Below are positions 1,337-25,234 of a stretch of 25,419 bases of DNA, piece after piece. Under the pieces are notes generated by a model. The model ran no database searches. It saw nothing but the letters and a program-made list of their open reading frames with translations, and was not told the DNA's origin. A program made the position numbers and the translations under genes. Source of the stretch: a virus; IMG/VR virus record IMGVR_UViG_3300003410_000023, positions 7,099 through 32,517 of that record; one strand, 5' to 3'. Position 1 is the first letter of the stretch; the number at the start of each line of letters is the position of its first letter.

Positions 1337-3667
1337 TTATTGCTCATCGTAATCTTCTGGATTATAGTCACCCAGACTAACATTATATTTATCAGCAGGC
1401 TTTGAGTTCCCTAAATTGAGAGGTTCATCTATAATAAAGTCACCATTAGTAACAGGATATACATTTCCGATTTCACCAGAGGAAGGGTTCCTTCTAACGG
1501 GAGAATAAACCTGTCCAGGAGGCTGTGAGAAAGTATTTTCGGGGGATCTCAATTCACCCCTAGAAGAAACTAGAGAATTTTCTCCATATACTTTGGTATT
1601 TCCAAGAGAATCTGTAGTAAAGTCGCCATTAGTATAAACGTCTTCATTTAACTGCGGATTGTAACTTCTATCAGGTACTCCTAGATCCCTACCTGGATTA
1701 TTCTCATAAACATCACCGGGAGAATCAAATTTATAAGTTCTTTGTGGGGATCCTAAATCTGTTCCTGGAACGTTTCTATAAACATCTCTATCTCCTCCGG
1801 GTTCGGGATAAGCTCTATCAGGACCTCCTAAATCAGATCCTGGTACATTCTCATAAACATCCCCTTCTGGTTCTGGATAAACTCTATCAGGAACACCTAA
1901 ATCTGATCCTGGTACGTTTTCATAAGCATCACCACTTGGATCTGCATAAACACGATCAGGAGCACCCAGATCCGACCCTGGAACATTTTCGTACACATCA
2001 TCATTTACACCAGAATAAACTCTATCAGGAACTCCAAGATCTGCCCCAGGAACTCCACTATAAACATCATCGCTTACACCTGGATATACTCTATCCGGAA
2101 CACCCAAATCAGAACCAGGGACATTTTCATAAGCATCCGCTGGAGGAACTGGTGGATACACTCTCTCCCTCGGTCCACCTTCCCCCATGGTTTGTGGATT
2201 TGGTAGATTACCCTTAAATATATTATCAATGCCAGTTTCAGAAGCCCCATTTAGAAAATTTTCCAAATTATTGAACCCAAAGGATCCATTTTGGCTTGTC
2301 ATTCTTGATAACTGTGACGGATTGAAAGAATAAATGTTCCCAAGGAGAGATTGGTCTATACCACTAAGAACAGGGTCTATAAATTGATTTATCCCTTCAT
2401 TAACCAAGTCAGAAACTGCATTAGAAACTATATTAGTTAAAGCTTGCTGTCCTGCACCTATTATTCCTTCCAAAGATAAAGTATCATCACCCAAAAATTG
2501 GTAGCTGGATCTGTTTTGATCCCACCCATCAGCCAAAACCAAGGGTTTTCTATCCTGCCTTATATTTGGATATTGACTTTTCATTCTAACCTTACCAACA
2601 TGTATCTTGAATGATTGTTTTTCAGGATCCGCTGTACTAGATCCCATATCGGTCTCATTCGTTAGAGGTGTACTATCGCTAAAATCAAACTCACATTGAC
2701 TACATTCATAAACCATGACGGGTTTTATACCACTTTGATCCTGTTGATTTGTGAATGCCTCAAAGTCATTCTGGAGACCTGATCCGCTGAATACATTTCT
2801 AGCAAAAGATGAAAAAGCCCCTCCTCCACCTCCAGGATCAGGTCTTTCAGAACCTAGATTAAATCCATCTACGCTATATTGTCCATTACCCTGGGAATTT
2901 ATGGAGGATCCGGGATTTCTGTTAGTCGTTAATGTTGAAGATAAATTATCAATAGCTGCCAGTGCAGTACTGGAAGCGGTGAGTCTACTAGTCTTAAAGA
3001 AATTTCTGATCTCAGTTACAAATATCCACATTGTAAACTTTCTCATATTCCTTGGTACAAGGTACCTCATATTATCAGCATCGAATGTAGCCTGATTGTA
3101 AAGGTCAGCTAAAGCAGTAATCCTTAAATTAAGAGACTCTAAGCAATTTATGGTTAGTGTTTTATCTTGGGTCCTTTGTGGACTAAAAGAATCAGCCCCA
3201 TCACTATCCTGAAATCCGCTCTTAGATATTTTATCAAGTCTATCTAGACCTTCGATCGACTGGAAAAACCAAGGAGAATTTGTATTTATCTCCTGAAGGA
3301 GTTTTTGGAACTGTCTAATCGCCTGTGCTCTCCTTTGTGTATCACCGCCAGGAAAATTAGCTTCCCTCTCCAATAAATAATTATATGCTGAATAATATGT
3401 TACATCACTTTCTCTTCTTTCATATTGTGGCTGTCCAAAAGGATTACCAAGATTTGTTGCAGCACCAGCACCGTTGGTCAATGTATAATTTTGTGCTCTT
3501 AAAAGAGGACTTGGTGCCCACCCATAGTCCGGGTTTATTGGAAGTATGCCAGGATCAAAAACTATTTTAAATCCTAAATATGTCGGGTCTTCGTTTTTTC
3601 CAGATTCAGATAACTTAAATCCTTTTAAAAATAAATTCCTATTTTTATCTGTTGCTCTAATTCCCAT
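1337..3667 (-). CDS. Baseplate/tail-tube-domain protein with C-terminal Tyr-Pro-Gly repeats
   Basis: This 776-aa protein has two parts. Residues 1 to about 390 look like a tail-tube-type domain of the kind found in T4 gp48/gp54-like tube-baseplate adaptors. They include a YLGFKIVFD start, SPWFFQSIEGLDRL, NCLESLNLRITALADLY and LVPRNMRKFTMWIFVTEIRNF-like segments, and a CSQCEFDF strand. A Gly/Ser-rich linker and a short amphipathic region follow. Residues 510-675 are about seven copies of a 23-residue unit (consensus DVYENVPGSDLGVPDRVY), and the tail is acidic and Tyr/Pro-rich. The gene sits between the gp27-like hub and the gp5-like spike. The tube-fold assignment rests on remembered sequence patterns and is moderately supported. 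The role of the repeats is unknown, and exposed spacer or fibre-binding functions are possible. Confidence 0.7.
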   Translation of the reverse strand: MGIRATDKNRNLFLKGFKLSESGKNEDPTYLGFKIVFDPGILPINPDYGWAPSPLLRAQNYTLTNGAGAATNLGNPFGQPQYERRESDVTYYSAYNYLLEREANFPGGDTQRRAQAIRQFQKLLQEINTNSPWFFQSIEGLDRLDKISKSGFQDSDGADSFSPQRTQDKTLTINCLESLNLRITALADLYNQATFDADNMRYLVPRNMRKFTMWIFVTEIRNFFKTSRLTASSTALAAIDNLSSTLTTNRNPGSSINSQGNGQYSVDGFNLGSERPDPGGGGGAFSSFARNVFSGSGLQNDFEAFTNQQDQSGIKPVMVYECSQCEFDFSDSTPLTNETDMGSSTADPEKQSFKIHVGKVRMKSQYPNIRQDRKPLVLADGWDQNRSSYQFLGDDTLSLEGIIGAGQQALTNIVSNAVSDLVNEGINQFIDPVLSGIDQSLLGNIYSFNPSQLSRMTSQNGSFGFNNLENFLNGASETGIDNIFKGNLPNPQTMGEGGPRERVYPPVPPADAYENVPGSDLGVPDRVYPGVSDDVYSGVPGADLGVPDRVYSGVNDDVYENVPGSDLGAPDRVYADPSGDAYENVPGSDLGVPDRVYPEPEGDVYENVPGSDLGGPDRAYPEPGGDRDVYRNVPGTDLGSPQRTYKFDSPGDVYENNPGRDLGVPDRSYNPQLNEDVYTNGDFTTDSLGNTKVYGENSLVSSRGELRSPENTFSQPPGQVYSPVRRNPSSGEIGNVYPVTNGDFIIDEPLNLGNSKPADKYNVSLGDYNPEDYDEQ
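1643..2138 (-). repeat. In-gene tandem repeat, about 7 units of 69-75 nt
   Basis: Within the 776-aa baseplate gene the sequence encodes about seven successive units matching DVYENVPGSDLGVPDRVY plus a variable 4-7-residue spacer, and then a partial copy (DVYTNGD). The core PGxDLGxPxRxY is kept in every unit while the spacer varies in sequence and length. Units differ by many synonymous changes, so the array is old or held by selection on the protein rather than a fresh DNA duplication. Confidence 0.9.
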
Positions 3668-8455: not shown

Positions 8456-9030
8456 TCTGCTGAAAATTTAAAGGTATCATCTCCTGATGTTTCTCCGGAT
8501 CCCTGTATATCTATGCCTAAAACATACTTAAATAATTTTAGGAAAAGACCAGGTATAAATATGTCTTTAGCTTTAACCACATCATTAGCAGGAATGAATT
8601 TAAATTCCATTTCTTGCTCTTCTGGACTACCATCAGTAATTGCTTCTCCTTTTTGTAAACCAGTAACATCTACAGCAAAGCAAGGCTGCTCGTGATCAAC
8701 AAATTTGGAAGAAGTAACAGATCCAAGGTAATACCACCTATCATTTTCATCCGCTTTAAATCCACTCTCTTCCAAAAGTTCCCTCTTTGCAGTAGTAAGA
8801 AGATCAGGATCTTCATCCTCACTCGTACCTGTAATTAAAGAAATTGTTAAACCTCCTTCTCTAAATGGATTTGTCTCCTTAAGTACACCAATTGCTAGAG
8901 GCAATCCTTGATCATCAGAAACAAAAGGCATAACAACAACATTCATAAATGTTGGGACTATTCCAATCCTTCCGTCTCTCTCGACAACGTTTAGTCCTTT
9001 GGTTTCATATAATATTTTATTGGTCTCCAT
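8452..9030 (-). CDS. Nudix hydrolase
   Basis: This 192-aa protein carries a Nudix box. The catalytic half is intact at residues 83-91 (RELLEESGF), preceded by Gly68 and an acidic run (EDEDPD). Counting from that Gly, the spacing to the RE is one residue longer than the canonical GX5EX7REUXEEXGU, so the first Glu is shifted or replaced. The family hydrolyses nucleoside diphosphates linked to another moiety (for example ADP-ribose, NADH, Ap4A, capped RNA ends) using Mg2+ held by the two Glu residues. The substrate cannot be read here. N-terminal strands (VPTFMNVVVMPFV) and the box fit a typical ADP-ribose-pyrophosphatase-like layout. The gene overlaps both neighbours (14 bases upstream, 4 downstream) and sits inside the late tail unit, an unusual place for a metabolic enzyme. 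Confidence 0.9.
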   Translation of the reverse strand: METNKILYETKGLNVVERDGRIGIVPTFMNVVVMPFVSDDQGLPLAIGVLKETNPFREGGLTISLITGTSEDEDPDLLTTAKRELLEESGFKADENDRWYYLGSVTSSKFVDHEQPCFAVDVTGLQKGEAITDGSPEEQEMEFKFIPANDVVKAKDIFIPGLFLKLFKYVLGIDIQGSGETSGDDTFKFSAE

Positions 9031-9685
9031 CTTCTATTGGTTTTTCCTTGTTCTTTTTTAAACTCTTGCTTGTTGACTTTTGAGTAGCGTCATAGTAATT
9101 TGATATAGAATCTGCCAGGGCTGATCTTATATCCTCTATATCAATACCCTCAGTTATATAGTTTATAATTTCATCATCAGCATTATCAAACGAGCTTATT
9201 AAAACGTTATACAAGCTTTTAGGAGGAAGGTTTAACTTAAGGGTTATGTTAACATTAACCCAATTTTCCTTCTGTTTTTTTAATAGCTTATATATCGGTG
9301 ATTCTTCCAGCTGAACCGAAGAAACTGTATTCCTGGATGCTTGCTTATCGGAAGTACTAGGCAAGTTATTTCCTTGAATAGATTGTTCTAAAGCAGGTTC
9401 TGTAATGACAGGCTCGTCCTTGAAATCAACCCTTGTTGCCGGGAATTTATCTAGATATTCTTCGAGTAGCTCTACATTAATTCTTCCACCGCCTTTAAAT
9501 TCAACAAAAGTCATTCCAGTGGCTTCGTCTGGAGAAACATCTAGAAATTTTTCGACATTTCCCATTTTATCTCCCTTTATCCATTGGAAATCATATTTGG
9601 ATAATTCTTCTTTGACTTCGGGTAAAGTTTTTTCCTTTAGATCCATCTTTTTTTTCTTATTAAATATTCGACTCAACCATCCCAT
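9017..9685 (-). CDS. Unrecognised 222-aa protein, late tail unit
   Basis: The protein starts MGWLSRIFNKKKK, a hydrophobic-then-polylysine N-terminus. A compact region follows with a short beta motif (GMTFVEFKGGGRINVELLEE) and a Ser/Thr-rich linker around residues 100-125. A mixed domain comes next (WVNVNITLKLNLPPKSLYNV, then DDEIINYITEGIDIEDIRSAL), and the tail is Lys-rich. No family is recognised. It is the first gene after the 122-bp gap at 9686-9807 and runs 14 bases into the Nudix gene, so the two are likely co-translated. Its coding status is well supported by composition and packing; its role is unknown. Confidence 0.85.
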   Translation of the reverse strand: MGWLSRIFNKKKKMDLKEKTLPEVKEELSKYDFQWIKGDKMGNVEKFLDVSPDEATGMTFVEFKGGGRINVELLEEYLDKFPATRVDFKDEPVITEPALEQSIQGNNLPSTSDKQASRNTVSSVQLEESPIYKLLKKQKENWVNVNITLKLNLPPKSLYNVLISSFDNADDEIINYITEGIDIEDIRSALADSISNYYDATQKSTSKSLKKNKEKPIEDGDQ

Positions 9686-13861: not shown

Positions 13862-15262
13862 TTATTTACTTCTGAGGAAAAGTTCTACTGCCTTATATCG
13901 ATAGGCTATTTTATCTTCCTTTATCTTTGGATTCTTGAGTGGAGCCTTCTTCCTATTAATTATCTCATCAGGCAGAAGAGGGGCAAAGGTATCTTTCAAG
14001 ATTTTTTTATCCTTTCTCCATTCCAAGGGTAAGTGCAATGCAAATCTTACCAAGTCCAAGTTAAGAAAAGGACTTCTAAGCTCAATAGTATGTGCCATTG
14101 ACATTTTATCCAATCTAGGCAAGTGATAGAAAGATAATTCATCGAAGATATCAGATTTCTGTGAATCGTACTCGTGGATTCTTTTATACCCACCAAAAAG
14201 TTCGTCTGCTCCATCACCAGATAAAACTATTCTATAGCCACCGAATTTTTTCACTGCATCGAAAAGATGGTATTGTGGTATCACAGAACCAAGATCTATC
14301 GGGGATTCATTCCATTTTTTATAAATTAATTCGTTCATAGATTCATACATGCTATAATCTAGGAAAGAAACTGTTTTCCCCAACCGGTCTGCTAGCAAAT
14401 CCACATATTCCCTTTCACCGTTTTCTATACTAAACCATCTAACTTCAGCACCAATTTCATTTAATACGGAAGCTATAATTGAGGAATCAAGACCACCAGA
14501 AATAAGTAAAGATATTGGATAGTCTTTTGAGACAAGTCTATTCCTAACGGACTCGAACATTTTTTCCCAAAGCCATTCCATGTGTTCCTCATATCCTTTA
14601 CCAGCCAATTCTGATATTGGATGGTCAAATCCTTTATAGTAATTCTGATAAACGTTCTTAAACTCAGGATTATCCAGATTAAAGTTATAGATGTTATTAG
14701 GAAGTATTCTTTTTATATCACTATATGGTGTTCTATCATCAGTATTATATCCCCACTTTCTAACAGTGCTTATAAATGACTCATCAATAGGGGAATTCTC
14801 ACTTATCAGTGGCTTTATTTCAGATGCTATTTCTCCACTGGTATTATAATAAAGACATTTTCTACCCAATGGATCTGTAAAGGCTATAATTTCATTGGTC
14901 GTGGAATTGTAAACTGTGATAGCCCAGAATCCATCCCAAGTTTGTATAACCGGCGAAAAAAGAGCACAGAACATCTCAAAACTTTCCCCTCTATATCTTG
15001 AGAATGCATCGACTAAATATTCTATATCAGAACCATACCTTTCCCTGTCATAGTTAAATATCTCACCGTTAAACAGCAAATAGATGCCGTCTGCTACCTC
15101 TATTGGTTGATTCCAATCATCACCATCAGAAGTCTGTATTGGAAGCCTGTGGTGGCATATATTTAGTCCATTCTTAGAAACAACAGTTTTTTCGATGCCT
15201 CTATGTTTAATTGAGTCCAGTACTTCTTCACCTGGAGTTTTAGTAATTATTATTCCGCACAT
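13862..15262 (-). CDS. asnB: Asparagine synthetase (glutamine-hydrolysing), AsnB type
   Basis: This 466-aa enzyme has two domains. The N-terminal class II glutaminase has the nucleophile Cys2 (MCGIIIT), a HRG at 20-22, HHRLPI at 37-42 and NGEIFN at 65-70. The C-terminal PP-loop synthetase has SGGLDSS at 255-261 for ATP and SGDGADELFGGY at 348-359, followed by LDKMSMAHTIELRSPFLN. The family makes asparagine from aspartate, glutamine and ATP through an aspartyl-AMP intermediate. Some relatives amidate other carboxylates instead. At 466 residues it is shorter than E. coli AsnB (about 554) but all catalytic motifs are intact, and the classical RHRGPD is replaced by KHRGIE. It directly abuts the kinase-like gene (stop TAA then ATG) in an island with a glycosyltransferase-like gene. 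The real acceptor in the phage is uncertain. Confidence 0.93.
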   Translation of the reverse strand: MCGIIITKTPGEEVLDSIKHRGIEKTVVSKNGLNICHHRLPIQTSDGDDWNQPIEVADGIYLLFNGEIFNYDRERYGSDIEYLVDAFSRYRGESFEMFCALFSPVIQTWDGFWAITVYNSTTNEIIAFTDPLGRKCLYYNTSGEIASEIKPLISENSPIDESFISTVRKWGYNTDDRTPYSDIKRILPNNIYNFNLDNPEFKNVYQNYYKGFDHPISELAGKGYEEHMEWLWEKMFESVRNRLVSKDYPISLLISGGLDSSIIASVLNEIGAEVRWFSIENGEREYVDLLADRLGKTVSFLDYSMYESMNELIYKKWNESPIDLGSVIPQYHLFDAVKKFGGYRIVLSGDGADELFGGYKRIHEYDSQKSDIFDELSFYHLPRLDKMSMAHTIELRSPFLNLDLVRFALHLPLEWRKDKKILKDTFAPLLPDEIINRKKAPLKNPKIKEDKIAYRYKAVELFLRSK

Positions 15263-19122: not shown

Positions 19123-19395
19123 TTAGTAAATATTTGTTGTATCTCCGGAATCAGCTTTTGCATCCATAGCATTAGCTAAAGCATTTAAAAGGGCTGGCAT
19201 TTGACCAACCAATCTTGCCTGGTTTCTTACACTAGCTGCCTTTTCCTTGAGATCTGTTGTTTCTTTCTGCTTAGCTATTTCTTCAGCTATCAAAGACTGT
19301 TGTTCATTAACATCAGCTTTAGCCTTGATCAGATCTTCGTTTGCGCCCTCAAAAAGGTTTTGAAAGTCAGATATTCTTTTTATATGATTATGCAT
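19123..19395 (-). CDS. Small helical protein with capsid-targeting-like leader
   Basis: This protein has 90 residues from the ATG at 19395. A reading from a TTG at 19407 adds four residues, but the ATG gives the 8-base overlap (ATGCATAA) with the preceding stop. The sequence MHNHIKRISDFQNLFEGANE has a basic/aromatic helix and an LFE-G site, the closest match in the window to the T4 internal-protein cleavage consensus. The remainder is a single long Ala/Glu/Lys/Gln helix (NEQQSLIAEEIAKQKETTDL) and an Ala-rich segment, likely coiled coil. It sits between two other helical genes. Confidence 0.8.
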   Translation of the reverse strand: MHNHIKRISDFQNLFEGANEDLIKAKADVNEQQSLIAEEIAKQKETTDLKEKAASVRNQARLVGQMPALLNALANAMDAKADSGDTTNIY

Positions 19396-20281
19396 ACCTT
19401 CTAGCAATAGTTATTTTTGTTCTCAAATCCCTTATTTGTTTCATTAGGGTTTCCCTTAATTCTGAAATACTATTCTTAACACTATCATCAGATAATCCTT
19501 TCTTTTTAGCCTGAGCTTCAAGACGATCTCTTTCAGTATCTAATGTAGCGTACCTTTCATTCCTCTCAGACTGCATAGCCTTAATTAAAGCACCAACCTG
19601 ACTCTTTTCGAGGTCTTGTACAAATTTGGTAAATTGAGGAGCATTCATAGAAAAGATAGGATCCATTGAAAAATTAGAACTTGTTATAGCCCTACTTTCA
19701 GCATCCGATTTAAGCGTAGAGGGCTTTGCTAAATCAAGCTTACCAAACTTTTCTCTAAACCTTTCATCCTTCTCTTTAGCATCCAAAGCTGCTTTCTTAT
19801 ACTTATCATAAAGTTCACCAGCAACAGAATCGTCAGTAAGACCTTTTGCCAGCTTGTACATTTTTTCAGCCAAGTCCGCTTCCAGCTCGGATTTTTTCAA
19901 ATTCCAGTAAGAAACCAATCTCTGCTTTCCATTTACAAGCTTTTCGACTCGATCATCAACCTTGGAAATATCAGCCTTCCTCTTTTTATTCAGTGCAGTG
20001 AGAAGCTTCTGATTCCTGTCGATCATTCTTTCTAGCTTCTTAGCTTCAGCAGGATCGCTTTTTGTCTGGGCTTTCTTTACCTCCAGTGCATCTATATCAG
20101 TTTGGATTTCATTCCAATCTTTAGAATATTGGGTCTCTATTGAATTAACATCAGAAAGCAATGTATCTATCTTAGATATAGTTCCTCCGAAGTTAGAACT
20201 TAACCAATTCATTATCTTATCTAGGCTAGAGTCCTTCTCATTTAAATTCTGAGATTCCCATTCTTTAAAATTTAACAACAT
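19388..20281 (-). CDS. Coiled-coil protein, candidate internal head protein
   Basis: This 297-aa protein starts MLLNFKEWESQNLNEKDSSL, with an LNE-K site after an aromatic helix. Nearly the whole remainder is predicted helical and highly charged, with heptad-like spacing (DALEVKKAQTKSDPAEAKKL; NRQKLLTALNKKRKAD; LETQ-type Glu/Lys runs), ending KKGLSDDSVKNSISELRETL. No globular or enzymatic motif is visible. It begins one base after the 366-aa gene's stop. The two proteins share composition and may be related or interact. Confidence 0.82.
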   Translation of the reverse strand: MLLNFKEWESQNLNEKDSSLDKIMNWLSSNFGGTISKIDTLLSDVNSIETQYSKDWNEIQTDIDALEVKKAQTKSDPAEAKKLERMIDRNQKLLTALNKKRKADISKVDDRVEKLVNGKQRLVSYWNLKKSELEADLAEKMYKLAKGLTDDSVAGELYDKYKKAALDAKEKDERFREKFGKLDLAKPSTLKSDAESRAITSSNFSMDPIFSMNAPQFTKFVQDLEKSQVGALIKAMQSERNERYATLDTERDRLEAQAKKKGLSDDSVKNSISELRETLMKQIRDLRTKITIARRYA

Positions 20282-20282
20282 C

Positions 20283-21383
20283 TTAGACTAATTTTTTTAT
20301 TAAGTTACCAATCTTCTTTAGGGTTACGTCGGATTTCATATCAACAACATCTTTTGTTATTCCCGAACCAGCATCATTACCATCAGCTATTGCAGAATTG
20401 ATCTTACTAAAAAGGCCAGTTAAAGCAGATTCATTAGAAATGGATTTACCTTTAGACTTGATAGCATCGGAGTAAACACTAATCAGATTTTCAAGGGAAT
20501 CGACCTCATTTGCTTTATCCTCCAGGTCCTTTATCCCATTAGAAATCTTTCCAGAAGATTTAACCTCTTCGTATGTCGGGGACTTTGACATGAACTGTTT
20601 TACATCATTTAGAACCTTCGACATCTGTGATTTTATGTCCTTAACACGTTCCTTAGATTTTTCTTTTAGAGATACGATAACGTTAATATCGTTAATAGAG
20701 ATCCTTTTTCTCAAAGATGCAACATCCTCTAGCTCTGAGTCCTTTATGGAAGATTTTGTTCTTGCAGAATCTTTGGATTTAGAAACAAAAGACTCCGCTT
20801 TCTTAGAAGCAGTCTCTAGATCATTCTTAAGCTTCTTTATTGAGCTATCGTCGGAAGACTTTTGTTTTGCAAGTTCATATTCAAACTTAGCTAGATCATA
20901 CTTATCGTCCAAAAAACCGGCCTCGTAATATTCTTTTCTCCTTGGGTTTTTACCTATAGTTTTTTCTAGAAGATTCATTCCTTTATTCATCTGTTCCCTT
21001 TTCATCTTAACAAACGAACGGAATTCTTTTCTCTTTCTTTCTATCTGAGATCTCAAACGGGAAATTTCATTAGAACTAGAACCTTTTTTTCGTGCTTCTT
21101 CTACCTTACCCTCTATATCAAGAATATCATCCTCCATGTCATATTCCTTTCTGATTATCTCCTTTTGAATTTCAAGATTACCCTTCCTAATAGTATCTAT
21201 AACGGATAATCTAGAAAAAGGTCCGAATAAAGTCTTAGAAACTGAATTTTTCAAAGTATCAAGAGCTTTACCCTCATTAAGATTATAATAATCCAATAAG
21301 AGACCAGCGAAAACAACCTGATCTACTTCTTCTGAAAGATCTCTTTCGAACAGGAACTGCTTATGTGAGTTTAATTTATTCAT
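20283..21383 (-). CDS. Lys/Ser-rich coiled-coil protein, candidate internal head protein
   Basis: This 366-aa protein is the first gene after the capsid terminator. The N-terminus MNKLNSHKQFLFERDLSEEV contains an LFE-R site, and a second possible site (YYNLNEG) lies near residue 37. The body is long charged helices (EISRLRSQIERKRKEFRSFV; LAKFEYELAKQKSSDDSS) with many Lys, Ser and Glu residues, giving a basic character that could contact packaged DNA. No enzymatic motif is seen. Two overlapping TATA-type boxes lie just upstream. Confidence 0.82.
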   Translation of the reverse strand: MNKLNSHKQFLFERDLSEEVDQVVFAGLLLDYYNLNEGKALDTLKNSVSKTLFGPFSRLSVIDTIRKGNLEIQKEIIRKEYDMEDDILDIEGKVEEARKKGSSSNEISRLRSQIERKRKEFRSFVKMKREQMNKGMNLLEKTIGKNPRRKEYYEAGFLDDKYDLAKFEYELAKQKSSDDSSIKKLKNDLETASKKAESFVSKSKDSARTKSSIKDSELEDVASLRKRISINDINVIVSLKEKSKERVKDIKSQMSKVLNDVKQFMSKSPTYEEVKSSGKISNGIKDLEDKANEVDSLENLISVYSDAIKSKGKSISNESALTGLFSKINSAIADGNDAGSGITKDVVDMKSDVTLKKIGNLIKKLV

Positions 21384-21396
21384 TATGCAACTGCCA

Positions 21397-21411
21397 CATT
21401 TATATTATATA
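21397..21411 (-). promoter_or_regulatory. Candidate late promoter for the internal-protein unit
   Basis: The minus strand reads TATATAAT (21411-21404) overlapping TATAAATG (21404-21397), ending 13 bases before the ATG at 21383. It follows the capsid terminator, so it probably restarts transcription for the downstream unit. Confidence 0.5.
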
Positions 21412-21423
21412 TCCCATATCAAT

Positions 21424-21453
21424 AAAAAAACCCCAGACAAAAGTCTGGGGTTT
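21424..21453 (-). terminator. Strong rho-independent terminator after the major capsid gene
   Basis: CCCCAGAC (21431-21438) pairs with GTCTGGGG (21443-21450) around an AAAA loop. Flanking A and T bases extend the stem, and the minus-strand transcript ends in a run of seven Ts. It begins 26 bases after the capsid stop. Confidence 0.95.
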
Positions 21454-21478: not shown

Positions 21479-23200
21479 TTAGGATAAACCTCCAGTAGGA
21501 ACGTTCACGTGGAAACAGAAGTACATAGTTTCTGGGTGGAAACCTGCTTCTACTAGTGCGTAACGAGACTTAACCGCAATCTTAGGTGACATAGTACCTT
21601 CAGAGATTGTTTGGATAGACTCAGCCATCATGTAAGGCATGAACTTAAGTCCTGGTTCGTCGTCACCACCTTTTCTACCAACTAATACTCTGTTATCACC
21701 GAACTTCATGTTCTGATCAACATAAACAGTCATACCTGCAAGCGAACCTACTGGGTAAAGTGTACCGTTGTTTTGAGTTAGTGTGTTAGAGAAAGGTGCA
21801 AAAGTGAACTGAGAGATGTCTTGCAATGCACTTGCAACGTTAGCGTTAGTAACGATGAAGTTAGCAGGACCTCTTCTTCCTCTGTTAGCTACTACGTTAG
21901 CAGAAGCTAAGATTCTAGAGAATAGTCTTCTCTGTAGAGTTGACAAGTTCTCGTATCCTCCTGAAGCAGGACCTGCAACAGATGAGATTGTAAGACCAGT
22001 GTCAGACTTACCTACGTAAGAAGGAATAGTGTAAGAACCTGCAGTACCACCGATAACGAGGTTTAGGTTCAAGTTTTGTCCTTCTGTAGTTAAGAATTCG
22101 TCGTGGTTAGACCATCCAAGAGCAAATGCTCTAGAAAGGATGTGCTTGTTGATAGCTTGAGATACTTCGTTAACCAATGCATTTTCGATCATTGAGATAA
22201 CGTCGATACCAAATTGCTTGTTCAAGTCTTGGATTTGCTCAGTAGTTACTGAAGCAGCTACTTGGAAAGTATCAGCTTCAACGAACTTAGTGAACGTTGA
22301 AAGACCCATTGATTGGTAGTAAGTGCTCTCACCAACACCTCTTAGCATTGGGTTGTAAGTCTTAGTACCGTCTACGAATGGACCTTGAAAGTCTTGGTCG
22401 TTGTTGAAACCAGCACCAGAGAATCCTTGGATGTGATCCTCAAGAGCTTTTACCAATTCTGCTCTTGCAGTTGTAGTACCTGCTTGAGCACCGTCTACTG
22501 AAGTACCAATTTTAGTAGCACCACCATCAAGAACTGCAGAAACAGTTTCACCAGCTGTTAATCCTTCTATCCTGAAGATTGGGAAACCATCAATTCTAGA
22601 TAGACCAACAAACTTAGTAGTGATGTAAGCACCTGCTGAAGAAGCGTTAGTGATGTAGTAAGTAGTACCTACTGCAAAATCTGCAGGATATCCAGCAGCT
22701 GGAGTAGTCAATTGTACCTTGATCATAGATGGTGCAGTTGCTAGTGCATCTGCAGCAGTTGAACCAGCTGTTGTTGGGCTGATTTTACCACCTGAGTATA
22801 CGTAATCTAGGTAAGAAAGTACGCCAGTAGGACCTGACATAGGAATTACAGGAACGATATCGAATCCAACAGTCTTCGCAGCAACCTGAATTGCCAATGG
22901 AAGAAGTGAAGGAAACTTATCTCCTGAACCTTGGTTAGCAGAGTTGTAGAAAGCTGCGTTAGCTTGGTTACCTACTGCTGCACCAGTTGAGTTATACCCA
23001 CCTGGGTATGCGGGTGGAGCTACGGCACCCATACCGTTTACAGTTGCTAGTGACTGATATGCACCAGCAGACTCGTTTAATGAATGGTAATGGCAATACT
23101 TGCTCAACCATCCTTTTTTCTCAGCATCTTGAATTCCTGCCTTCTGCTCAATGATAGGAGACCAGGTTTCGAAGATTTCTGCTTCGTTGATTAGTTTCAT
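21479..23200 (-). CDS. Major capsid protein, T4 gp23-like
   Basis: This 573-aa protein forms the head shell. The N-terminus (LINEAEIFETWSPIIEQ) parallels the T4 gp23 leader, and a probable prohead-protease site LNE-S lies at residues 41-44 (YHSLNESAGAY). This would leave a mature form of about 530 residues. The HK97-type core follows: FPSLLPLAIQVAAKTVGFDI then VPVIPMSGPTGVLSYLDYVY as in gp23, later ANFIVTNANVASALQDIS, MTVYVDQNMKFGDNRVLVG and MSPKIAVKSRYALVEAG. Residues 130-270 are Ala/Thr/Gly-rich and fit an inserted domain at the position of the gp23/gp24 insertion. The coding sequence looks less AT-rich and more codon-biased than its neighbours, as expected for a very highly expressed gene. 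Its leader is A-rich (AATATAATAAAAAG before ATG), without Shine-Dalgarno. Confidence 0.95.
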   Translation of the reverse strand: MKLINEAEIFETWSPIIEQKAGIQDAEKKGWLSKYCHYHSLNESAGAYQSLATVNGMGAVAPPAYPGGYNSTGAAVGNQANAAFYNSANQGSGDKFPSLLPLAIQVAAKTVGFDIVPVIPMSGPTGVLSYLDYVYSGGKISPTTAGSTAADALATAPSMIKVQLTTPAAGYPADFAVGTTYYITNASSAGAYITTKFVGLSRIDGFPIFRIEGLTAGETVSAVLDGGATKIGTSVDGAQAGTTTARAELVKALEDHIQGFSGAGFNNDQDFQGPFVDGTKTYNPMLRGVGESTYYQSMGLSTFTKFVEADTFQVAASVTTEQIQDLNKQFGIDVISMIENALVNEVSQAINKHILSRAFALGWSNHDEFLTTEGQNLNLNLVIGGTAGSYTIPSYVGKSDTGLTISSVAGPASGGYENLSTLQRRLFSRILASANVVANRGRRGPANFIVTNANVASALQDISQFTFAPFSNTLTQNNGTLYPVGSLAGMTVYVDQNMKFGDNRVLVGRKGGDDEPGLKFMPYMMAESIQTISEGTMSPKIAVKSRYALVEAGFHPETMYFCFHVNVPTGGLS

Positions 23201-23224: not shown

Positions 23225-25234
23225 TTAAAACTTACCTTCGAGCGACTTAGCGACCCAATTAAGGTAATCATTTGAATACCCTTGAGGGGTTGTAGCCGTC
23301 TTAGGCTCTGGTGTTTCTTGGCTCTCTTGAAGTTTCTGAAGTCCTACTGGTTTAGCACCAAGCTGACGAGTTGACCAGAAATTTTTGATCTGATATGAGG
23401 TTTCTAAATTATAGAAGTGAGACTGAGCAATAACTGATTGCTTTTGACTCTCATTTAGAGACTCCCATAACGGAGCATAATCTTCTGGCATTTCATCAAT
23501 AAATTTGTGACTTGATGATTCTGCCAATTTTACTTCTTCGGCTTCGTTGATTGCCTCATCTGCTTTTTGTGTTTGAGCAGTTGGCTCAACTTTCGTTTTT
23601 GCCTCGTTTATATTTTCCTCAGTCTTCTGTGTTTTGACCGATTCAATTAGAGAATCAATTTTACCTCCGAGATTTTCATAATCTCCAGCAAAACCTGATT
23701 CGACCAATTCTGTTTTGGAAGCTGTTACAGCATTTTCTCTAGCGCTTTCGTTTAACGAAGGTGCTTTTTCTGCTTTAACGCTTTCGTGAATAGCTTCTGT
23801 ATTAGCTATATTACCATTTAACTTCTCAGCTAAATAATCAGAGTAAGCAATTCCTTTATTTACATTCTCTGCTAGGTACTCTGTGTAGTTGATTCCTTGA
23901 TCTAGCTTTTCAGCGATATACTCGGAATAAGCAATTCCTTTATCAAGATTTTCAGCAAGATACTCAGAATAAGAAATACCTTTATCTAAGTTTTCTGCTA
24001 AGTACTCAGAATAAGCAATATTCTTGTCAACTTTTTCTGCCAAGTATTCTGAATAAGCAATTCCTTTATCAAGATTCTCCGCCACATATTCTGTATATTG
24101 TATACCATCGTCTACTTTTTCTGCAAGATACTTAGAGTAGTCGATTGCTTTGTCAACATTTTCAGCCACGTATTCTGAATATGAAATGCCCTTATCCACA
24201 TTTTCTGCCAAATACTTAGAATAAGAAATAGTCTTGTCCAAGTTTTCCGCCAAATACTTAGAATAAGTAATGCTACTATCTAGATTTTCTGCAAGGTACT
24301 CACCGTACTTGATAGCACTTTCTAGATTTTCTGCAAGGTACTCGGAGTATTTCTCCAGTTTAGAAACTCTTTCTTCCAGAGCTTTGCAATCTACAGAGTT
24401 ATTTTCGCTTTCAGTAACCTGAGCTTCTTGTTGTTTCATTTCAGAAATTTGCGTTTCAAGCTCATCCATCTTATTTTTCAAAAAGATAGAATACTTATTA
24501 AGCTCGTCAGCAGTAACATATTCTTTGTTGGCCTCCATAATAGTGGATTTATTTTTATCTTGATTAAGGATTTTTTCGAATTCTTCGCTATTTTCAACTT
24601 TATATATCTTCACACCAGATTCATTTTCTATGCCTAGTGATTCATTTACACATTCTAAGTTGTTTATAATCGAATTTTTTGATCTCTTCTCGAATTCAAA
24701 AGCATCGAAACCAGCGCTTTCATATACTCTTTCTAGCTGAGCGTCCTGAAAACCAGGATCAGCTACCAGATCATACGTAAAGATTTTTTTAATTTGTACC
24801 TTCTTGTCAGGTCCGACGTTTCCTGCTGCTCTAGATGAAATAGAAAGAGGTATACCAGCATCTACTAGCTTTTTAGCAATTTGTCCAGCTGGAGTGTCAA
24901 GCAAACGAACTTTAATGTTTAATACTCTTCCGTCTTTATCATAAACAAGATCCTCAACTACGTGAGAGATGTTTTTAAGAGATACATCGAATTTTTCAGG
25001 ATGGTCTAGTTCACCAACCAATCTCTTTTTACCTATCTTATCCTTAAGATATTCTAAATGAGGTAGGTATTCGCCTTCCTCATAGATTCTGTTGTTGTTA
25101 TTCTCCTTCCCAAATTGAGCAGCAATACCCTGAAGTACATACCCATCATCTGAGACTCCCTTTGAGACATCAAGATTATTATCTTGCTTCTCCAGGATAA
25201 AAAGGAGATTTTCATTCAATAAAGACTCGTTCAT
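23225..25234 (-). CDS. Prohead protease (gp21-like) fused to a repeat-containing scaffold
   Basis: This 669-aa polypeptide has two functions in T4 terms. Residues 30-190 are a gp21/S80-type prohead protease: LVGELDHPE with His78, ISHVVED, LLDTPAGQIAKKLVDAGIPL and LSISSRAAG with Ser133. These are the expected catalytic His and Ser. Residues 240-290 are a Glu-rich helix, residues 295-476 are 13 copies of a 14-residue helical unit, and the rest is an acidic/Ser-rich region. A final domain follows (DYAPLWESLNESQKQSVIAQ; FYNLETSYQIKNFWSTRQLG). [LV]xE-type sites such as SLNE-S occur in the C-terminal part, so the protein could process itself. T4 makes protease (gp21) and scaffold (gp22) from separate genes. 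Here no separate scaffold lies between protease and capsid gene, only 24 bases. Confidence 0.9.
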   Translation of the reverse strand: MNESLLNENLLFILEKQDNNLDVSKGVSDDGYVLQGIAAQFGKENNNNRIYEEGEYLPHLEYLKDKIGKKRLVGELDHPEKFDVSLKNISHVVEDLVYDKDGRVLNIKVRLLDTPAGQIAKKLVDAGIPLSISSRAAGNVGPDKKVQIKKIFTYDLVADPGFQDAQLERVYESAGFDAFEFEKRSKNSIINNLECVNESLGIENESGVKIYKVENSEEFEKILNQDKNKSTIMEANKEYVTADELNKYSIFLKNKMDELETQISEMKQQEAQVTESENNSVDCKALEERVSKLEKYSEYLAENLESAIKYGEYLAENLDSSITYSKYLAENLDKTISYSKYLAENVDKGISYSEYVAENVDKAIDYSKYLAEKVDDGIQYTEYVAENLDKGIAYSEYLAEKVDKNIAYSEYLAENLDKGISYSEYLAENLDKGIAYSEYIAEKLDQGINYTEYLAENVNKGIAYSDYLAEKLNGNIANTEAIHESVKAEKAPSLNESARENAVTASKTELVESGFAGDYENLGGKIDSLIESVKTQKTEENINEAKTKVEPTAQTQKADEAINEAEEVKLAESSSHKFIDEMPEDYAPLWESLNESQKQSVIAQSHFYNLETSYQIKNFWSTRQLGAKPVGLQKLQESQETPEPKTATTPQGYSNDYLNWVAKSLEGKF
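23807..24352 (-). repeat. 13 x 42-nt in-frame repeat in the scaffold region
   Basis: Thirteen consecutive 14-codon units encode variants of YSEYLAENLDKGIA with no insertion or deletion: 546 bases is exactly 13 x 42. Tyr, Tyr, Ala, Glu and Ile positions are nearly constant. The fourth Tyr/Leu and the Asn/Lys pair vary, and DNA sequences differ in wobble bases. The unit length equals two heptads, so the segment probably forms a long continuous helix or coiled coil. Confidence 0.95.

Follow-up and report, generated by a model that had tools for sequence, protein, structure and literature searches.

How can a phage with a T4-type head set the ratio of prohead protease to scaffold when the two are encoded as one polypeptide? 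The question was raised by a 25,419-nt stretch of DNA (the window) taken from the 34-kb record of a virus that has not been cultured. A sequence-only reading of the window had proposed that protease motifs and a long helical region share one frame directly ahead of the major capsid gene, and had noted that such a fusion would fix protease and scaffold at 1:1 unless an internal start made scaffold alone. We found the fusion gene at 23225..25234, where that reading had placed it; it is read from 25234 to 23225 along the minus strand, starts with ATG and encodes a single 669-aa ORF (75 kDa, pI 4.6) in which both the protease motifs and the helical repeat region are contained. The next gene on the same strand (21479..23200, minus) encodes a Gp23-type major capsid protein (Pfam Gp23 E 2e-41), confirming the proposed gene order. 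A sequencing or frame artefact behind the fusion was ruled out because one open frame was kept in all relatives.

The protease part of the protein matched Pfam Peptidase_S77 (E 8e-7) and S80 (E 2e-6) and PHROG 207, 'head maturation protease' (E 3e-35, residues 14-229). A PDB search with the family profile returned T4 gp21 (5jbl) as its sole match (E 3e-5), and when the AlphaFold model was searched with Foldseek the best fold match was again 5jbl (E 1e-8, TM 0.72 by target), with herpesvirus assemblins next. The T4 gp21-type serine protease domain identified by Pfam S77/S80, the PDB profile and Foldseek spans residues ~28-165 (24739..25153, minus strand). Its catalytic-position codons on the minus strand, His78 (25003-25001) and Ser133 (24838-24836), were invariant in the relatives and aligned with the two sites occupied by Ala in the crystallised T4 gp21 construct (5jbl). 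By profile, fold and catalytic residues, the N-terminal part of the fusion is a T4 gp21-type (S77/S80) prohead protease, as had been read from His78 and Ser133. Between protease and scaffold we noted a conserved N197-E198-S199 (VNE/SLG; 24638..24646, minus strand), in which N was kept in 49, E in 50 and S in 48 of 51 sequences, as was G201 in 49. We regard VNE/SLG (cut at the slash) as a candidate autocleavage site; its sequence fits the L/I-x-E rule of gp21 (PMC9026906) except for V at P3. Besides the fusion, stand-alone relatives of the protease domain were seen in LR756501 (~11437) and LR756500 (~154846) as ORFs of 181 and 135 aa, respectively; these are possibly second proteases.

The scaffold region is acidic and contains 13 repeats of 14 residues with the consensus YSEYLAENLDKGIA (residues 296-477; 23804..24349, minus strand). 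The spacing was perfectly 14 residues from residue 296, and Y1, Y4, A6, E7 and I13 were invariant in 13/13 units, each carrying a possible protease site, (LIV)AE. The AF2 model showed a single helix at 282-473 and further helices, at low confidence (pLDDT ~40-68) and weak over the repeats; together with the 13 repeats, this modelled helix bore out the long helical, repeat-bearing region that had been proposed. We counted 11 [LI]xE sites in the repeats, against 4.0 in shuffles, and 11 in the C-terminal part, against 2.9, while the protease part showed no enrichment over shuffles. A conserved C-terminal helical domain (residues 575-622, MPEDYAPLWESLNE...QIKNFWSTRQL; 23369..23512, minus strand) was modelled by AF2 at pLDDT ~80 and is also visible in Lak, PTm1 and pT24. 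In the same model the chain ends in an amphipathic helix (residues 655-669; 23228..23272, minus strand), which may serve as a capsid-binding tail by analogy with the C-terminus of the herpesvirus scaffold (PMC12474303). A scaffold role is supported by position, helix content, repeats and protease-site enrichment, and not by homology to gp22; a weak search of five genomes, made without a positive control, found no gp22 relative elsewhere at E 1. A Pfam 'LTI65_PGEED' match within the repeats was set aside and taken as low-complexity repeat similarity. Scaffold-like repeats also occurred in other proteins, namely a short ORF with MNYEDYIAESLEKNISYSEYISEN in LR745206 (~460486) and a 210-aa ORF with three C-terminal repeats in LR756501 (~620141).

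We scanned IMG/VR twice (47 and 80 loci) and kept 78 distinct complete relatives. The loci were selected with protease-domain patterns, a selection that a scaffold-only gene would escape; within it the fused form was found in 78/78 relatives, with 7-15 repeats each by a loose pattern, and no relative was split. The fused form with the same type of repeat was also present in phages LR745206 (635 kb), LR756500 (462 kb) and LR756501 (735 kb), the repeats being degenerate in LR756500. The reading of protease and scaffold as one polypeptide was therefore supported, with split forms only farther away: PA5oct (210 aa + 368 aa + capsid), T4 (gp21 + gp22 + gp23) and the ackermannvirus PWKp5 have separate genes in the same order. 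Elsewhere the protease was joined to other C-terminal parts, as in PTm1 (564 aa), pT24 (527 aa), MaF61 (1404 aa) and a Lak phage. In the cultured Flavobacterium phage MaF61, the 1404-aa ORF (L055:4869-9083) takes the fusion to an extreme, with the protease domain first and many LNE motifs in the chain. In Tenacibaculum phages PTm1 (ORF-300) and pT24 (BPT24_140), as in the window, a fused protease and helical region precedes the capsid gene; their repeats, however, are unlike YSEYLAEN. We rejected the idea that the fusion is unique to this phage, given the 78/78 fused relatives and its presence in other huge phages, PTm1, pT24 and Lak among them. The rarity of the arrangement had been overrated in the sequence-only reading, since lambda, P2 and herpesviruses fuse the two functions too (PMC8508860, PMC7552001, PMC12474303), and the fusion itself is of a known kind. 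The label of the PTm1 protein, 'prohead core scaffolding protein and protease', was rejected as a sign that its fusion had been recognised, because a 208-aa protease of XacN1 has the identical label.

We then examined the junction between the two parts for an internal start. The candidate start codon, Met233 (24536..24538, minus strand), follows the A-rich sequence AAAAATAAA and was singled out by Met conservation, start context and synonymous constraint. It would open a nested scaffold gene (23225..24538, minus strand), in frame and co-terminal with the fusion, with a predicted product of 437 aa (49 kDa, pI 4.5). The junction Met was kept in 70/70 relatives for which we could position the anchor motif and lay 4-9 residues N-terminal of VTxEDFNKYS in 69 of those 70, in a linker that is hypervariable and whose neighbouring residues vary with indels. 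In the alignment, Met occupied the Met233 column in 49/51 rows, whereas the commonest residue of each of the two preceding columns reached at most 14/51; these counts, like those given below for the promoter-like element, ignore shared ancestry. When a codon alignment of 22 clade members was divided into 618 eight-codon windows, the top excess of synonymous identity fell at codons 203-217 and 223-235, so that one peak surrounds Met233 and the other lies ~70 nt upstream. Junction ATGs had a start-context score of +2.0, compared with gene starts at +4.9 and internal ATGs at -5.6; the context of Met233 in the window itself was good but not outstanding, in the top 11% of internal ATGs only. Another ATG lay between the internal element and Met233 in 9/40 relatives. 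A Shine-Dalgarno sequence at the internal start is not expected, because the genes of this lineage use A-rich starts.

The upstream peak led to a nucleotide element. The first synonymous block (codons 203-217) coincided with the octamer GATATATA, which was invariant in 37 clade members. The codon preceding it was AAG, ATG, CAG, AGG or CGG (Lys, Met, Gln, Arg) with the final G in 37/37, and inside it every Ile was ATA, a codon used for 19% of Ile in the rest of the gene, and every Tyr was TAT. In two relatives (L107 and L108) the element stands at -34, in other codons, and we conclude that the nucleotide element and not the peptide is kept. The window has one promoter-like copy 34 nt before the fusion ATG (P1; 25261..25268, minus strand) and an internal one in the protease-scaffold linker, 70 nt before the internal ATG (P2; 24601..24608, minus strand). 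The two share the exact 13-mer GATATATAAAGTT, and both copies were present in 38 relatives. Across the 34-kb record, 6/8 sites of GATATATA had a gene start on the same strand no more than 150 nt downstream, compared with an average of 0.1 for permuted motifs, and in four related contigs the counts were 33/47, 27/41, 52/71 and 34/48, compared with 0.3-2.3. From its sequence distribution, GATATATA is a gene-start-associated, promoter-like element genome-wide. The 70-nt distance from P2 to its ATG is longer than the 12-40 nt of most elements. No -35 element was seen in the aligned GATATATA sites; T4 late promoters likewise lack one. The relatives G001-G004 encode gp55-like late sigma factors (E ~1e-10). 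Allowing 2 mismatches, GATATATAAAGTT was not above chance in the window alone (3 vs 2.1), so the promoter claim rests on the position of the exact 8-mer relative to genes; a sigma-70 promoter scan was near chance level (10 found vs 6.8 expected) and uninformative. No recognisable internal element was found in clades L111-L150 and the megaphages, though the Met is kept, and there the start would need the long mRNA or another promoter. A second GATATATA in coding frame (CACCGATATATAAGCTATTAAAAAA) was seen at 9296-9289 within the gene at 9017-9685 (minus strand), and the same gene in G001, G002, G003 and G004 has it as well; it is possibly an internal promoter for downstream genes.

Downstream, GATATATA was absent from the 70 nt before the capsid gene, and a hairpin with a T-run (AAACCCCAGACTTTTGTCTGGGGTTTTTTT; 21423..21453, minus strand), read directly and resembling an intrinsic terminator, follows the gene on its 3' side. 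With no GATATATA over those 70 nt and a hairpin after the capsid gene, P2 would feed scaffold and capsid, and P1 would add the protease. A further GATATATA (21406..21413, minus strand) stands upstream of the next gene, which encodes a 366-aa helical protein. Three helical proteins encoded 3' of the capsid gene (19126-21383, minus strand) are likely core proteins, and their N-termini and those of their relatives (FKEWESQNLNE, FEEYKKY, FKDFKMNE) resemble targeting signals. Inside the head gene cluster we also observed a class II glutamine amidotransferase/asparagine-synthetase-like gene (MCGIII...; 13862-15262, minus strand), which recurs in G001, G003 and G004. A 776-aa protein encoded at 1337-3667 (minus strand) has ~8 tandem ENVPGSDLGVPDRVYP-type repeats in its C-terminal third.

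Taken at the nucleotide level, the 70/70 Met, the synonymous peaks and GATATATA indicate that the 437-aa scaffold is very probably made alone, from a promoter and start inside the gene, as in herpesvirus UL26/UL26.5. The separate scaffold start that the sequence-only reading had asked about is thus very probable; the fusion behind its concern over stoichiometry stood, and the concern over a fixed 1:1 ratio was largely answered because the evidence within the gene for a second promoter and start is strong at the nucleotide level. Starting from the fusion, the protease fold, the conservation of Met233, the constraint on nucleotides and the association of GATATATA with gene starts, all of them present in the sequence, we consider it highly likely that the locus is an overlapping pair, a protease-scaffold gene and a nested co-terminal scaffold gene driven by P1 and P2, whose products would co-assemble and be cleaved in a timed manner. 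We infer transcription from P2, use of Met233, the ratio of the products, and where and when cleavage occurs, as follows. P1 (25268) would give an mRNA for the protease-scaffold and the capsid protein, and P2 (24608) an mRNA with Met233 as its first in-frame ATG, for the 437-aa scaffold and the capsid protein. The scaffold pool would then consist mostly of protease-free chains with a minority of fusion chains; these would co-assemble by way of the repeat helix that both kinds of chain have and so take the protease into the prohead. The T4 core has ~576 gp22 to 100 gp21 (PMC5694885) and in HSV-1 the long form is ~10% of scaffold (PMC12474303); by analogy, the ratio here may be similar. On closure of the shell the protease would release itself at the candidate site VNE198/S199 and then cut the capsid propeptide at the candidate site SLNE/SAG (SLNESAG is also found in G001, G003 and G004). 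Finally, it would chop the scaffold at many (LIV)xE sites, and the pieces would leave before DNA entry.

Other readings of the junction were weighed against this one. If only the full-length fusion were made, as with gpO of phage P2, self-cleavage at VNE198/S199 would free scaffold and protease. The universality of the fusion in the relatives examined, the nearly invariant NES and the precedent of P2 gpO (PMC7552001) agree with such a scheme, which nevertheless seems improbable to us, as it leaves unexplained an invariant Met in a variable linker, two peaks of synonymous constraint and a promoter-like element at that very place. The element might instead be a promoter for the downstream capsid gene alone, with Met233 unused as a start; the capsid gene, which lacks GATATATA over its 70 upstream nt, does need reading from P1 and P2. 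We hold this very unlikely, since Met233 is kept even in clades without the element, the constraint covers codons around Met233, and the first in-frame start on an mRNA from P2 would be Met233.

Conversely, Met233 could be used on the long mRNA in the manner of lambda C/Nu3, with GATATATA kept for another reason. The distant clades that have the Met without the element would suit this arrangement, as would the A-rich start context and the precedent of lambda (PMC8508860); in the window clade, however, the element stands at gene starts genome-wide, is invariant through different amino acids and has been relocated in L107 and L108, and we judge the arrangement unlikely. There is also little probability, in our estimate, that the C-terminal repeats form some other internal head or core protein and that the true scaffold is among the helical proteins at 19126-21383. 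Those proteins do have CTS-like (capsid-targeting-signal-like) N-termini and gp22 homology could not be shown, but the position of the repeat region matches the scaffold genes of T4 and PA5oct exactly, it is a long acidic helix, and [LI]xE sites are enriched in it and not in the protease part.

The nested pair, as we propose it, resembles herpesvirus UL26/UL26.5 (UL80/UL80.5) in its N-terminal protease, C-terminal scaffold and in-frame, co-terminal shorter gene inside (PMC12474303), and the protease folds are similar. In the phage, protease and scaffold likewise stand N- and C-terminal in one frame and the in-frame junction Met is conserved (70/70, with synonymous constraint), which is consistent with such a pair; in contrast to the herpesviruses, the protease is of T4 gp21 type, the scaffold sequence is unrelated, the promoter element is phage-specific and the scaffold-only product is predicted. 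Lambda C/Nu3 and P2 gpO also have protease and scaffold in one frame (PMC8508860, PMC7552001), and the lambda genes for scaffold and protease overlap (PMC8508860). The lambda and P2 proteases, however, belong to families other than the one found here, where there is also evidence for a separate promoter. We know of no nested scaffold in P2. With T4 genes 21, 22 and 23 the locus shares the protease fold and motifs, the Gp23 capsid, the gene order and sites of the L/I-x-E type, whereas in T4 protease and scaffold are separate and an internal start in gene 21 yields a shorter protease. The nested gene would link T4-type heads of very large phages to the herpesvirus way of setting the protease-to-scaffold ratio, in which a scaffold gene lies inside the protease-scaffold gene and has a promoter of its own, and it opens the ratio problem to direct tests. 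In the titles and abstracts of the open literature searched, neither an internal promoter and start of this kind for a T4-type head nor the likeness described below between repeat and CTS was reported, and these are the parts worth testing.

T4 internal proteins are packed by means of a 10-residue N-terminal signal, in which targeting depends on residues 4 and 7 and cutting requires residues 8 and 10 (PMC9026906). We saw this CTS in the T4 genome as MKTYQEFIAE. The scaffold repeat, YxxY[LIV]AE, has aromatic, aromatic, Leu/Ile/Val and Glu at the T4 CTS spacings in 13/13 units, the same YxxF(I)xE pattern as the CTS of IPIII, MKTYQEFIAEA (PMC9026906); T4 cargo bears it once, at the N-terminus, whereas here a similar unit occurs 13 times within the scaffold. 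The likeness was noticed after the repeat had been seen, and some of it could come from a generic amphipathic helix. When we searched for CTS-like N-termini with a looser motif, they were found in 52/963, 27/895 and 19/508 genes of three huge phages, against 1.4-2.8 in shuffles, and in 6-11 proteins of three contigs of the window lineage (160-343 kb), with shuffles at ~0.3-2.8 across genomes. PTm1, which differs from the window lineage in this respect, and XacN1 showed no clear excess (2 each). The strict motif was absent from the 34-kb record, including the window's 31 predicted genes, and occurred 3 times in a 230-kb relative, against 0.6 in shuffles (maximum 3); the excess is clear only in larger relatives, with the looser motif.

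With the tag removed, the tagged proteins of the huge phages fell into 44, 24 and 12 unrelated clusters. Among 30 that were searched, some matched PPK2, Nudix, RNA ligase, adenylate kinase, ATP-grasp or transglycosylase domains and many had no Pfam match. We tentatively suggest, at somewhat less than an even chance, that the scaffold is a tandem CTS array, that the N-terminal tag of the cargo mimics one repeat, and that the protease later cuts at this same motif to free the cargo. If the repeat is a CTS, this would explain how the scaffold recognises cargo and would provide a sequence rule to predict injected proteins of huge phages. The CTS system would then load several dozen unrelated huge-phage proteins into the head for injection, including those with PPK2, Nudix, RNA ligase, 2'-5' RNA ligase/exonuclease, radical SAM, adenylate kinase, ATP-grasp and transglycosylase domains. 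The tagged proteins of LR745206, LR756501 and LR756500 also include a 2'-5' RNA ligase/Acb1-like domain with exonuclease, a SMODS-associated NUDIX domain and an RNA ligase, domains that could counter host defence.
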